From contig NZ_CP050497.1 of the NCBI RefSeq assembly GCF_018336815.1, positions 2,604,001-2,668,000 on the forward strand: a DNA stretch of 64,000 bases, in the 5' to 3' direction. A program made the translations under genes and the position numbers. The notes under the pieces were generated by a model. That model saw nothing but the letters and a program-made list of their open reading frames with translations. It ran no database searches and was not told the DNA's origin. This document shows, one piece after another, positions 17,137 through 58,346 of this stretch; the first letter of the stretch is position 1, and every line of letters starts with the position of its first letter. This DNA is from Treponema vincentii. GTDB taxonomy: Bacteria > Spirochaetota > Spirochaetia > Treponematales > Treponemataceae.

Positions 17137-17552
17137 TTGATAGCAAGGCGCCCTGCTCCGAAACAGAAGTTTCCAAGCACATCCATGCCAAGTTCAAAAA
17201 TTGACTTCCTTGTCAATTTTTGAACGCGAGTTTTTGCTGCACAAAAACATCGCTGCTACGTAGAACCACGGACATCCCTGTCCGTTCTGATACGTTGAGG
17301 ATTTTTAGTAGCGGCACCTGCTGTAAACCCTTCCGTAAGCCTTTTGGAAATAGACGATGCAGATACAAGGAGCCTAGCAAATTCCAACCGGAGGCGTATC
17401 TTTGATACGTTGAGGATCTTCAGAAGCGGCACGGATGCCGCGCGTATTAAGCAGAAACAAGTTTGACACCGGTCAAACTTGTGTTCAGCGAAGTACACGG
17501 ACGTACTTCGCTGAACGAGCGACAACGCAGATGCCCTCCTATTTGTCAAAGA
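17137..17552. repeat. Hairpin array C (GGA-loop hairpins), non-coding
   Basis: No gene is supported. On the minus strand: a 13-bp-arm hairpin at 17193-17224 with loop AAGGAA, a hairpin at 17227-17252 without GGA, and ACGGACA/TGTCCGT arms at 17268-17285 with loop AGGGAT. On the plus strand: GCGGC/GCCGC at 17426-17441 (loop ACGGAT), a GGA-less hairpin at 17457-17482, and a perfect 14-bp-arm hairpin at 17483-17516 (loop ACGGAC). A middle segment (about 17330-17420) including GCAGATACAAGGAG is related to the minus strand of 57613-57736. Short open frames across it are by-products of the palindromes. Confidence 0.75.
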
Positions 17553-31117: not shown

Positions 31118-31262
31118 GGTTGCCTCGTTAACCGATGAGTTTGCGTACCGCAAACATCACAGATTGTATGTACGCTATCGCGTACCAATTCAGCATCCTC
31201 CAAAATTGATATTTTGTTCGGCTGCTGAATTTTACGGAAGGTCTAACTTCGGCAGCATATAA
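31118..31262. repeat. Hairpin-rich insertion between hipB and hipS
   Basis: The gap holds stems at 31134-31157 (GATGAGTTTGCG/GCAAACATC), 31170-31185 (GTACGC-TATC-GCGTAC) and AATTCAGCA/TGCTGAATT (31187-31231). The first matches, on the minus strand, the GATGTTT...AAACTC hairpins of the arrays at 17 and 49 kb. GGT.TAACTTCGGCA occurs at both edges (about 31094 and 31242), so the piece may have inserted with a short duplication. Confidence 0.5.
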
Positions 31263-31596
31263 ATGAAAAATATATTCAGAACTGCATATGTGTATGTATA
31301 TAATAACTTCGCCGGAAAGTTGTGCGAAACCGATGAGGGATATTCTTTTTCTTATGATGAAACCTATATGGCGCAAGGAGATAATTATCCAGTTTCATTG
31401 ACGCTCCCGATTCGAAAAGACCCCTATACATCAAAAACGTTGTTTTCCTTTTTTTGATGGACTGATTCCTGAAGGATGGCTTCTTGAGGTTGTAAGCCGT
31501 AATTGGAAGATAGACCCTAAAGACAGATTTGCCTTGCTGTTAGTTGCTTGTAAGGATCCTATCGGAAATGTCAGCATAAGTGAGGAAAAGATATGA
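31263..31596 (+). pseudogene. hipS: HipS-like small subunit (HipA N-subdomain 1), frameshifted
   Basis: The frame starts at the ATG at 31263 (MKNIFRTAYVYVYNNFAGKL, then YDETYMAQGDNYPVSLTLPI) and breaks in seven T at 31449-31455. Dropping one T gives FFDGLIPEGWLLEVVSRNWK and ends SISEEKI with a TGA at 31594 that overlaps the hipT ATG. The restored length is 110 residues. This is the Couple_hipA domain encoded separately, as in three-gene hipBST modules, where HipS rather than HipB can act as the antitoxin. If the frameshift is real the kinase may lack its inhibitor, so a sequencing error or slippage is more likely for a living host. Confidence 0.78.
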
Positions 31597-32543
31597 ACTG
31601 TCTGTGTTGTGGAAAGCTGATAAAAGACAATAATGAAAGTAGCGGCTGGCATAAGACATGTATAAAAAAATTTTTCACAACAGCTGTTATTCCGGAAATT
31701 GAAATAACAGACTCAGTGTTGGAAGAACTAGCAAAAGAAAGCACCAATAAAGGGTATACTATTCCGGGTGTTCAGAAAAAACTTTCATTACATCTTTCAA
31801 ATGACGTGTATCCCAGATTGACTGTTGTGAATTACCCTACAGGATATATTTTGAAACCTCAAGTAAAAGAATTTCGTGCGTTGCCGGAATCTGAGCATCT
31901 TGCTATGTCTATGGCAGATAAAGCTAAGATTGTAACCGTTCCTCACGCTCTTGTAAAAAGTAAAGACTCTTATGCGTATATTACAAAAAGAATTGATCGT
32001 GTTTTTTCAAGAAATGCCAATGTAAAGCTCATCGCTATGGAAGATTTTTGTCAGCTTGATTTAAGATTGACTCAAGATAAATATAAAGGCTCTTATGAAC
32101 GATGCGGGAATATTATTAAAAAATACTCTTATCGTCCCGGTCTTGATATAACCGAACTATTTTATCGACTCGTGTTTTCGTTTATTATCGGAAATTCCGA
32201 TATGCATTTGAAAAATTTTTCCTTGATTGAAACGCAATCGGGTTCGGGAGTATATCATCTTTCCCCTGCATATGATTTGCTTCCGGTCAATATCATTATG
32301 CCGGAAGACAAAGAAGAATTTGCTCTGCCGATAAATGGAAAGAAAAACAATATTCATCGTAAAGATTTTCTTATCTTTGCAACCGGTTACGGCATAGCGA
32401 AACTTGCAGCAGAGAAAATGATAGGACAATTGATATCTATGACACCTGTTTTTATTGAAATGTGCCGTAATTCTTTAATACCTGATGATATGAAAAAGGC
32501 CTTTATAGCATTAGTTAATAAAAGAGTATCCGCTCTAAAGTAG
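31593..32543 (+). CDS. hipT: HipT-like toxin kinase
   Basis: A 316-residue HipA-type Ser/Thr kinase lacking the N-subdomain supplied by hipS. It starts MNCLCCGKLI...WHKTCIKKFF, a four-Cys/His knuckle common in split HipA proteins. Then come the Gly-rich loop TIPGVQKKLSL, the nucleotide-binding AYITKRIDR, the catalytic loop IIGNSDMHLKNFSL and the metal-binding YDLLPV. HipA phosphorylates glutamyl-tRNA synthetase; HipT targets tryptophanyl-tRNA synthetase in E. coli; the target here is unknown. GAGGAAAAG lies upstream of the start, and the ATGA overlap couples it to hipS. All catalytic residues look intact. Confidence 0.87.
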   Translation: MNCLCCGKLIKDNNESSGWHKTCIKKFFTTAVIPEIEITDSVLEELAKESTNKGYTIPGVQKKLSLHLSNDVYPRLTVVNYPTGYILKPQVKEFRALPESEHLAMSMADKAKIVTVPHALVKSKDSYAYITKRIDRVFSRNANVKLIAMEDFCQLDLRLTQDKYKGSYERCGNIIKKYSYRPGLDITELFYRLVFSFIIGNSDMHLKNFSLIETQSGSGVYHLSPAYDLLPVNIIMPEDKEEFALPINGKKNNIHRKDFLIFATGYGIAKLAAEKMIGQLISMTPVFIEMCRNSLIPDDMKKAFIALVNKRVSALK

Positions 32544-49498: not shown

Positions 49499-49528
49499 AT
49501 TGCTTAAATGTCTTAGCAAGACTGAACG

Positions 49529-49557
49529 AGTATTCCATAATTTCAAAAGAAAGTCAA
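49529..49557 (-). promoter_or_regulatory. Promoter of tRNA-Lys
   Basis: On the minus strand TTGACT (49557-49552), 17 bases and AATACT (49534-49529). The -35 is identical to that of tRNA-Leu and the start falls about 25 bases before the tRNA. Confidence 0.65.
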
Positions 49558-49558
49558 G

Positions 49559-49928
49559 CCCCGTGCAAACGCATCATGGCTATTTCTTAGCATCCCCGCA
49601 GAATAATTGAGGCCGTTCAACCAGAACTGCCACGGATGGCGGTGGTTTTATGCAGCAGCGATGTTTTGTGCACGCACAAAACTCGCCTTCAACTGTTGTA
49701 CACGGATGTACAACAGTTGAAGATGGTTCAAATGGTCTCACGGCCTCAATTATTCTGCGCTTTTATCTACTCTGCCTGGTGAGTTTGCTCTCCTGCCAAA
49801 TCAACATACCGCAGTACCGCCATGGATGGCGGTAGTTTTATGCAGAAGCGATGTTTCGCGGTGACGCGAAACTCGTAGCCAAAACTATACACGGATGTAT
49901 AGTTTTGGCGCAGATGCGTCGTATATTT
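49559..49928 (+). repeat. Hairpin array D (GGA-loop hairpins), non-coding
   Basis: A perfect 20-bp inverted repeat (49597-49616 and 49740-49759) encloses unit 1: GCC/GGC stem with loop ACGGAT (49629-49640), GTTTTGTG-CACG-CACAAAAC (49663-49682) and a perfect 15-bp stem with loop ACGGAT (49687-49722). Unit 2: CCGCC/GGCGG with loop ATGGAT (49817-49832), GTTTCGCG-GTGA-CGCGAAAC (49853-49872) and a perfect 13-bp stem with loop ACGGAT (49878-49909). The units share GGTTTTATGCAG and GCGATG but their arms differ. No gene is supported; the array abuts the cysteine desulfurase stop. Confidence 0.8.
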
Positions 49929-57599: not shown

Positions 57600-58064
57600 T
57601 AGTCAAATCGGTCTTTTGAAAATATACGGCGCATCTACTGCGTCGTTACGCAAAAGCGAATGCTCAACGTACAGTAAGTACGCCTCCGCTTCGCTTTTGC
57701 TAAACTCCTTGTATCTGCGCCGTCTATTTTCAAAAGCGATGGCTGTAAGGGGATTTCTTTCGTTACTGCGCACAAATTAATCCTCAACGTATCTCAGAAG
57801 CGACACGGATGTCGCTGGTTCCATACAGTAACAAGTTTGCATTGCAAACTTGCAGCCCAAAAATGAACAAGGATGTTCATTTTTGGGCGAGGATGGCGGA
57901 GGTATTAAGCAGCAGCGAGATTTGTGGTATACACAAATCTCGTCGTTGACCAGGGTACAGGGACGTACACTGGTCAACAGTGCATCTACTGCGTCGCTCG
58001 TTCAGCGAAGTACGTCCGTGTACTTCGCTGAATACAAGTTTGACCGGTGTCAAATGGATTATCT
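57600..58064. repeat. Hairpin array E (GGA-loop hairpins), non-coding
   Basis: First a nested palindrome: 21-bp arms (57613-57633/57716-57736, one mismatch), 11-bp perfect arms GCAAAAGCGAA/TTCGCTTTTGC (57650-57700) and CGTAC/GTACG in the centre. Then GCGAC/GTCGC with loop ACGGAT (57800-57815), CAAGTTTGC-ATT-GCAAACTTG (57832-57852), a perfect 14-bp stem with loop AAGGAT (57855-57888), CGAGATTTGTG-GTATA-CACAAATCTCG (57916-57942), a 14-bp stem with loop AGGGAC (57945-57978) and, on the minus strand, a 13-bp perfect stem with loop ACGGAC (58001-58032). The last is the same sequence as 17483-17516. No gene is supported. Confidence 0.8.
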
Positions 58065-58346
58065 TCACTGTGCTGCTTGTTTTTCCGCTGCCATTGCATT
58101 GCGTAAAATGGTATTTATTCGGCTCTGATACCCCTTACCGTATGATTTAAGCCATACAATAATGTCCGAATCAAGACGGATTGAAAGCGGTTTTTTTATT
58201 GGACGATACATTTTAAAAAACTCTTCTTGTGTTAGCTCCGGAATATCAGATGTATCAATCGGTTGTTCAGCAAGTGTTTTTAACTGTTCTATCCGCTGTT
58301 GTGTAAGCATACTTTTAGCTTCTGAAAGTGTCATTGACTGCATCAT
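58065..58346 (-). CDS. brnA: BrnA-type antitoxin, orphan
   Basis: About 93 residues from the ATG at 58346 (MMQSMTLSEAKSMLTQQRIE). The C-terminal part, KKPLSIRLDSDIIVWLKSYG and KGYQSRINTILRNAMAAEKQ, is the BrnA pattern, a ribbon-helix-helix DNA-binding antitoxin. BrnA normally follows and neutralises the RNase BrnT. Here only the first dozen codons of brnT remain upstream, so it is an orphan. It may still act as a repressor or anti-toxin decoy. Confidence 0.82.
   Translation of the reverse strand: MMQSMTLSEAKSMLTQQRIEQLKTLAEQPIDTSDIPELTQEEFFKMYRPIKKPLSIRLDSDIIVWLKSYGKGYQSRINTILRNAMAAEKQAAQ

Follow-up and report, generated by a model that had tools for sequence, protein, structure and literature searches.

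The high-affinity RNA element of the Csr/Rsm system has been described as an ANGGAX hexaloop which sits straight on a stem and is closed by a C-G pair; the N of the loop is dispensable, albeit at a cost in affinity (PMC4005645, in its accessible portion). RsmZ and the CsrB repeats, CAGGA(U/A/C)G, provide examples of the N-less form of the loop (accessible parts of PMC4005645 and PMC7652899). As far as the available text of the latter source goes, the SELEX consensus of CsrA is RUACARGGAUGU, presented mostly in hexaloops with the AC and GU paired, and most of the selected hairpins have no more than 4 pairs, which was read as a sign that long stems are perhaps unfavourable (PMC7652899). For the spirochaete Leptospira biflexa, a non-coding RNA termed CsrA-like was suggested to act on CsrA (excerpt of PMC8668096). 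In Treponema denticola, csrA belongs to a flgN-flgK-flgL-fliW-csrA cluster, and in the accessible part of the respective article FliW is named beside csrA, but an RNA antagonist is not (PMC9481697).

TD-2 is a catalogued RNA motif which Rfam (RF03162; clan CL00124, together with TD-1) lists without a function beyond the type “Gene; sRNA”. Its source is reportedly a work of Weinberg from 2017. Literature searches returned no paper on TD-2 RNA in Treponema or on RF03162, and searches on TD-2/RF03162 and on CsrA in Treponema or in repeats revealed no link between CsrA and TD-2; the accessible part of PMC2864571 does not mention TD-2. Here we analyse a 64 kb stretch of the Treponema vincentii genome, referred to as the window, which contains three hairpin arrays that belong, with practical certainty, to TD-2. 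We interpret TD-2 as a dispersed palindromic Treponema repeat, the GGA strand of which would present CsrA sites when transcribed and may act as a dispersed sink; judged from sequence comparisons, we give this reading a probability of roughly 55%.

TD-2 units in the window

The initial annotation had reported eleven hairpins with a common six-base loop in three arrays (17193–17516, 49629–49909, and 57800–58032). The arrays were recovered at these positions, and the loop is indeed shared; the hairpins, however, number twelve, and the loop ACGGAT occurs five times instead of four. A cmscan search identified the arrays as copies of TD-2, five of which, scoring 60.5–75.1 bits, pass the gathering threshold of RF03162 (covariance-model score ≥48.7 bits). 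A TD-2 unit spans about 100 nt and is composed of HP1 (short stem, GGA loop), a linker, HP2, and HP3 (stem of about 14 bp, GGA loop). HP2, the middle hairpin between the two GGA hairpins, has no fixed loop and had been overlooked; it completes the unit.

The first array consists of a copy with HP1, HP2 and HP3 on the minus strand (17188–17285, 67.7 bits) and a plus-strand copy (17425–17520, 60.5 bits). In the former, a hairpin scan located HP3 at 17192–17225 (loop AAGGAA, perfect 14 bp stem) and HP1 at 17268–17285 (AGGGAT, 6 bp), and in the latter HP1 at 17426–17441 (ACGGAT, 5 bp) and HP3 at 17483–17516 (ACGGAC, 14 bp). Both copies of the second array are on the plus strand. The copy at 49626–49725 (66.8 bits) comprises HP1 at 49626–49643 (ACGGAT, one T-G pair in the stem) and, from the hairpin scan, HP3 at 49687–49722 (ACGGAT, 15 bp); the copy at 49816–49915 (75.1 bits) comprises HP1 at 49815–49834 (ATGGAT, 7 bp) and HP3 at 49878–49909 (ACGGAT, 13 bp), both likewise from the scan. 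The former copy lies within a larger element at about 49595–49760, a long inverted repeat (CCGCAGAATAATTGAGGC...) which frames the TD-2 copy and forms an outer stem in the RNA fold. Similar frames occur at positions 502964 and 834459 of the genome, and the orthologous region of the related genome G368 has the frame but lacks the TD-2 core.

The third array starts with a plus-strand copy at 57799–57888 (65.4 bits), in which the hairpin scan located HP1 at 57799–57816 (ACGGAT, 6 bp) and HP3 at 57855–57888 (AAGGAT, 14 bp), and an inverted-repeat search HP2 at 57832–57852. It is followed in tandem by a sixth, degenerate copy on the same strand (57883–57982; 52.8 bits in the genome search, contig positions 2661883–2661982), the HP1 of which is decayed; the inverted-repeat search located its HP2 at 57916–57942 and its HP3 at 57945–57978 (AGGGAC, one mismatch in 14 pairs). 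The two agreements with the SELEX ligand at 11 of 12 positions which the initial annotation had noted are found at 57865–57876 and 57955–57966. An inverted HP3 on the minus strand (58001–58032; ACGGAC, 13 bp, from the hairpin scan) has the same arms as the hairpin at 17483–17516. The array is flanked by a leftward-reading XPB-like helicase gene (from 57596) and by a BrnA antitoxin gene ending at 58065, which reads into the array antisense to most of its GGA hairpins. A long imperfect inverted repeat (57613–57736; arms of 26 nt, 88%) adjoins the array. Elsewhere in the window, a TD-1 RNA (RF03155, 65.8 bits) is located at 31127–31236 on the plus strand, upstream of a gene with a HipA_C domain (31593–32543).

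Ten hairpins of the form C-[ANGGAN]-G on a perfect stem (≥5 bp) are present in the window, all of them within the three arrays, as compared to a mean of 0.14 and a maximum of 2 in 100 order-1 Markov resamples; the two further GGA hairpins each contain one imperfect pair (the T-G pair at 49626–49643 and the mismatch at 57945–57978). When the loop was not preset, six of the seven perfect hexaloop hairpins in the window whose stems reach 12 bp had ANGGAN on either strand, as did 7 of the 17 whose stems reach 7 bp. RNA folds of the arrays were much more stable than those of shuffled sequences (z –9.6, –10.1, and –6.5). The Markov resamples and the loop-free scan, together with the hairpin counts in shuffles and the genome-wide reversed control described below, rule out chance hairpins. 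Nine of the twelve GGA hairpins are on the plus strand and three (17192–17225, 17268–17285, and 58001–58032) on the minus strand, a mixture not mentioned in the initial annotation; an array thus is not a single RNA full of GGA loops.

Loops and stems of the GGA hairpins

Alignment of 147 genomic copies yielded the HP3 consensus ACANGGANGT, in which only the two N positions are free. A (139 copies) and C (138) precede the loop, its fixed positions are A (139), G (143), G (143) and A (144), and G (141) and T (139) follow; at the first N, the counts are C 75, A 53, T 13 and G 6, and at the second N, T 81, C 36, A 22 and G 8. These columns lean towards GGA, because the Rfam model which found the copies includes the loop, while the HP1 columns were blurred by the hairpin finder used. 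Independently of Rfam, the bare 12-mer TACANGGANGTA occurs 146 times in the genome (77 forward, 69 reverse) as compared to two occurrences of its reversed control, whereas the permuted pattern TACANGAGNGTA occurs 6 times and its own reversed control 9 times. The genome-wide excess of GGA loops, the absence of which the initial annotation had named as evidence against its proposal, hence is present.

An Rfam-free scan of 646 kb of own and related stretches, all taken around TD-2 copies, detected 357 GGA hexaloop hairpins (stem ≥6 bp), as compared to an average of 18.7 over three mononucleotide shuffles. GGA occupies loop position 3 in 330 of the 357, and the other registers account for 14, 9 and 4; among the 330, the loop starts with A in 316 and is closed by C-G in 317. 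Of the 23 GGA pentaloop hairpins with a stem score of ≥10, ten are closed by C-G, and each of these has the loop AGGAC or AGGAT, i.e., the form which lacks exactly the dispensable N. A looser and less clean scan (stem ≥6 bp) returned 35 pentaloops, 23 with GGA at position 2, 11 of which start with A and 12 of which are C-G-closed. Twenty relatives, sampled by random 20 kb stretches, yielded 16 hexaloop hairpins (stem ≥9 bp), two of them ANGGAN; these numbers are too small for a genome comparison.

The commonest HP3 loop of TD-2, ACGGAU in RNA letters, is also the loop of an RsmE ligand (PMC4005645, accessible portion). The HP3 hairpins present an ANGGAX hexaloop on a stem with C-G closure, and by comparison of the sequences, loop and closing pairs match the Csr/Rsm element position by position, free positions included. 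On the strength of this motif, RNA of the GGA strand probably binds CsrA, so that the suggestion of a CsrA-type site in the initial annotation appears well supported. The stems of 14 bp, which exceed the ≤4 pairs of most SELEX hairpins, count against it.

Among 108 unique ANGGAN hairpins, the uppermost HP3 pairs are C-G (105), A-T (106) and T-A (90), followed by G-C (85) or A-T (15), which resembles the RUAC of the SELEX ligand. The outer arms vary in sequence yet stay paired, with 98.0% Watson-Crick pairs as compared to 60.3% when the letters of the 3' arm were re-dealt. Between similar arms, 369 changed positions were two-sided (206 transversions, 163 transitions) and 106 one-sided; these are pairwise counts and not independent events. 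DNA-level palindrome repair likely contributes to this pairing. Selection at the RNA level was assessed from G-T versus A-C mismatches in the stems, read on the GGA strand. A first, less clean count gave G-T/A-C ratios of 14/16 for HP3, 10/2 for HP2, and 24/18 over the three hairpins (p 0.44), after leaving out, from 148 hairpins each, 65 duplicate and 50 weak HP1, 36 duplicate, 5 weak and 1 undetected HP2, and 25 duplicate and 10 weak HP3. In a cleaner set of 267 hairpins, 38 G-T were found versus 19 A-C mismatches (p 0.016, with related hairpins not being independent), and 14 versus 7 in the T. vincentii genome alone (p 0.19). G-T pairs make up about 1% of the stem pairs of this set, which is low for ordinary RNA stems. 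The data thus give, at most, a weak hint of RNA-level selection on the stems.

Dispersal of TD-2 and co-occurrence with csrA

The 2.71 Mb genome (one contig) contains at least 147 TD-2 matches in both directions, 136 of them over the cut-off. The count is a lower bound, as 150 of 699 candidates were scored; the window copy at 17425–17520, absent from the genome list, was added by hand to give 148 copies. A replication-strand bias was not seen (77 plus versus 71 minus), the skew data being sparse. Three relatives within the genus have at least 150, 85 and 100 matches. In a sample of the phylum, with at most 10 candidates scored per genome and stricter filters, 58 of 392 genomes had a TD-2 match at E ≤0.001, and 51 of the 58 belong to the same family. 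Outside the family, five of six elements inspected by eye keep the C-closed ANGGAN HP3 (two in G177, two in G212, one of two in G374). Treponema putidum OMZ 758 carries TD-2 as well, with 13 of the 19 stretches that match the HP1-plus-linker pattern; four isolated hits, each in an unrelated or unclassified organism, may be due to chance. One genome, G276, has at least 116 TD-2 matches; the two inspected (L257, L272) are nearly alike and many others have similar scores, pointing to a recent burst.

Seven orthologous loci were chosen from flank matches. One is identical over two copies (496780 and 496915 in T. vincentii), one has lost the GGA (loop ACGAAT in G288, corresponding to 460251), one lacks the copy, one lacks a copy and has HP2 and HP3 of the next copy exchanged, and three are too rearranged to align. 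The missing copies, 2653626 and 2569497 in T. vincentii, are both absent from G368; at 2653816, HP2 and HP3 are swapped as a block relative to G368, with HP1 and the linker nearly unchanged. These comparisons indicate that TD-2 units are reshuffled, gained and lost in the manner of repeats. Several of 25 isolated TD-2 copies inspected are accompanied by recurring modules such as TATTTTCAAAAGG and CCTCAACGTATC, indicating that TD-2 is often part of larger composite repeats. The copies at 139876 and 1107553 have similar flanks (GTACCTCATCTTT...CTGATGGGGCAGTTTG), and since the former overlaps a long ORF, some copies may be read in frame.

As the initial annotation had presumed for treponemes, CsrA is encoded in the genome. 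The csrA gene (product of 73 aa) overlaps the end of fliW, and a flagellin-like gene, probably flgL, is located upstream. The protein aligns with solved chains of the CsrA family, and its PDB relatives by sequence include 2JPP, an RNA-bound RsmE entry. csrA was found in 75 of 78 genomes, namely in 55 of the 58 TD-2-positive ones and in all 20 listed TD-2-negative ones, which thus have csrA without a TD-2 match; the other 314 TD-2-negative genomes are outside this count. Co-occurrence of TD-2 and csrA is therefore uninformative. In three TD-2-positive genomes, G306, G215 and G351, csrA was not found; all three have flagellins, and the absence may reflect assembly gaps. In G306, one contig edge carries a truncated fliW, and the edge of another contig a weak csrA-like fragment (E 0.19). 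Searches of G215 and G351 gave no fliW, no flgL-like match, and no csrA match even at E 10, and a true loss of the operon would look alike. The GGA of HP3 is kept in six of six elements of G215 and in the single element of G351; if csrA is really absent from these genomes and not hidden in an assembly gap, this counts against CsrA.

Twenty-eight of 30 loci were inspected by eye, and 20 of these elements keep a C-A(N)GGAN-G HP3 while 8 do not. Elements of G306, G070 and G345 share HP2 and the linker with the other copies, yet their HP3 loops lack GGA and are of the type CGCTATTTCAGCG; none of the 13 inspected of the 22 matches in G306 had GGA in HP3, and two elements each were inspected in G070 and G345, both of which have csrA. 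At several of the loci L237, L238, L267, L269, L280 and L281 in these three genomes, HP1 is of the type TTCGCAATGAAATGAGAA. A CsrA site is thus not indispensable to the element, and this speaks for a repeat that has a biology of its own and, in most lineages, carries the site as well.

Competing explanations and related systems

A dedicated CsrB/RsmZ-like sRNA, transcribed from the arrays by a promoter of its own, would agree with the Rfam type and with the series of GGA hairpins on the plus strand at 57799–57982 and 49626–49909. GGA hairpins are not confined to one strand, however, neither in the window nor in the genome, where both orientations are present in 13 of 30 multi-copy regions. Promoter-like matches, identified with a consensus which may not suit Treponema, are at background for the array at 57800 (1 versus 0.8) and for the first array (0 versus 0.4); the second array has three weak ones versus 0.7, and a weak plus-strand match (9/12) lies upstream of it at 49513–49541. 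Over the 148 copies, neither a family-wide promoter nor a conserved upstream element was detected (column information ≤0.1 bit farther than some 25 bases upstream of the Rfam match), and a terminator-like site was not found at the 57800 array. Relative to genes, assigned by a greedy ORF picker (ORFs ≥100 aa) and not by a gene caller, 36 copies are sense, 48 antisense, 38 convergent, 23 divergent and 3 other; both motifs are intact in 27, 41, 29, 19 and 3 of these, respectively, or 119 of 148. A sense bias is absent, as tandem-gene regions contain sense-only copies in 19, antisense-only copies in 30, and both in 9 cases (p 0.15). Dispersed in both orientations, without sense bias or a visible family-wide promoter, the copies do not support the transcribed decoy arrays of the initial annotation, and we regard a dedicated sRNA as highly improbable. 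A cis-acting 3'-UTR or terminator element of neighbouring mRNAs would be consistent with the intergenic position of most copies in the same ORF set and with HP1 followed by GGTTTTAT or GTTTTAT at 49626–49643 and 49815–49834, which was called terminator-like (4 sites in the region versus 0.3 in shuffles). It is very unlikely in view of the missing sense bias and of the TD-2 copies between divergent genes in 16 of 96 regions.

A more serious, if still somewhat unlikely, alternative is a palindromic repeat acting at the DNA level, REP- or MITE-like, the GGA loop of which would be read on single-stranded or cruciform DNA by a mobilising or recombining enzyme, the likeness to a CsrA site being coincidental. 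TD-2 is dispersed, occurs in both orientations, and is present or absent at the level of single loci, as expected of REP or MITE elements. The roughly 150 copies show no relation to transcription; copies are absent or exchanged at orthologous loci and abound in G276; the palindromes are nearly perfect, with few G-T pairs and with transversions outnumbering transitions in the pairwise two-sided changes; related elements have other loops, and GGA loops persist where csrA was not found. Against a purely DNA-level element, the free positions of the Csr/Rsm site, the C-G and then A-T closure and the C-G-closed, N-less pentaloops would all have to be accidental, and the modest excess of G-T on one strand points to RNA.

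In the reading we prefer, that of a repeat carrying CsrA sites, GGA strands of individual copies would be transcribed by read-through, antisense transcription or local promoters; the two GGA hairpins of a transcribed copy would bind CsrA, perhaps with a single CsrA dimer spanning both, and the many copies could form a dispersed sink which buffers CsrA alongside the FliW protein encoded beside csrA. We propose that, as CsrA would recognise nothing beyond the loop and the uppermost pairs, the arms are free to vary. Weighing against this reading are the missing sense bias, the loops of antisense copies, which are as intact as those of sense copies, the mixed orientation of multi-copy regions, the lack of a conserved promoter, the scarcity of G-T pairs, the elements with non-GGA loops in genomes which have csrA, the orthologous copy that has lost its GGA, and the 20 genomes with csrA but no TD-2 match. 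A selected role of TD-2 as a CsrA sink is conceivable but doubtful. Equally tentative is the wider proposal that a mobile palindromic repeat has spread about 300 canonical CsrA sites through Treponema genomes, where it would serve as a distributed sink, or be a selfish element dependent on CsrA, and would take the place of a CsrB-type sRNA, with free arms kept paired by palindrome repair and a selected loop. Should the hairpins bind CsrA, a ligand would be gained for an orphan family that numbers well above 100 copies per genome, and TD-2 would add to Csr control an RNA layer made up of many repeat loci instead of one sRNA gene.

The copies in the window share the three-hairpin architecture and the loops of TD-2 in Rfam; the genome-wide numbers, the orientation, the behaviour of the arms and the match to the CsrA site are added to that record here. 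Hairpins with A(N)GGAX loops and C-G closure are common to TD-2 and the decoy RNAs CsrB/CsrC and RsmX/Y/Z, as described in the accessible parts of PMC4005645 and PMC7652899, but whereas each of these is one sRNA locus, TD-2 consists of dispersed units on both strands with long, near-perfect stems. As a spirochaete RNA with a suggested role towards CsrA, TD-2 would resemble the CsrA-like ncRNA of L. biflexa that is mentioned in one sentence of the available text (PMC8668096).

REP/BIME and MITE-type repeats have many, mostly intergenic copies in both orientations and form mosaic clusters. TD-2 resembles them in each of these respects; unlike those repeats, it combines a fixed loop and fixed top pairs with arms that vary from copy to copy.
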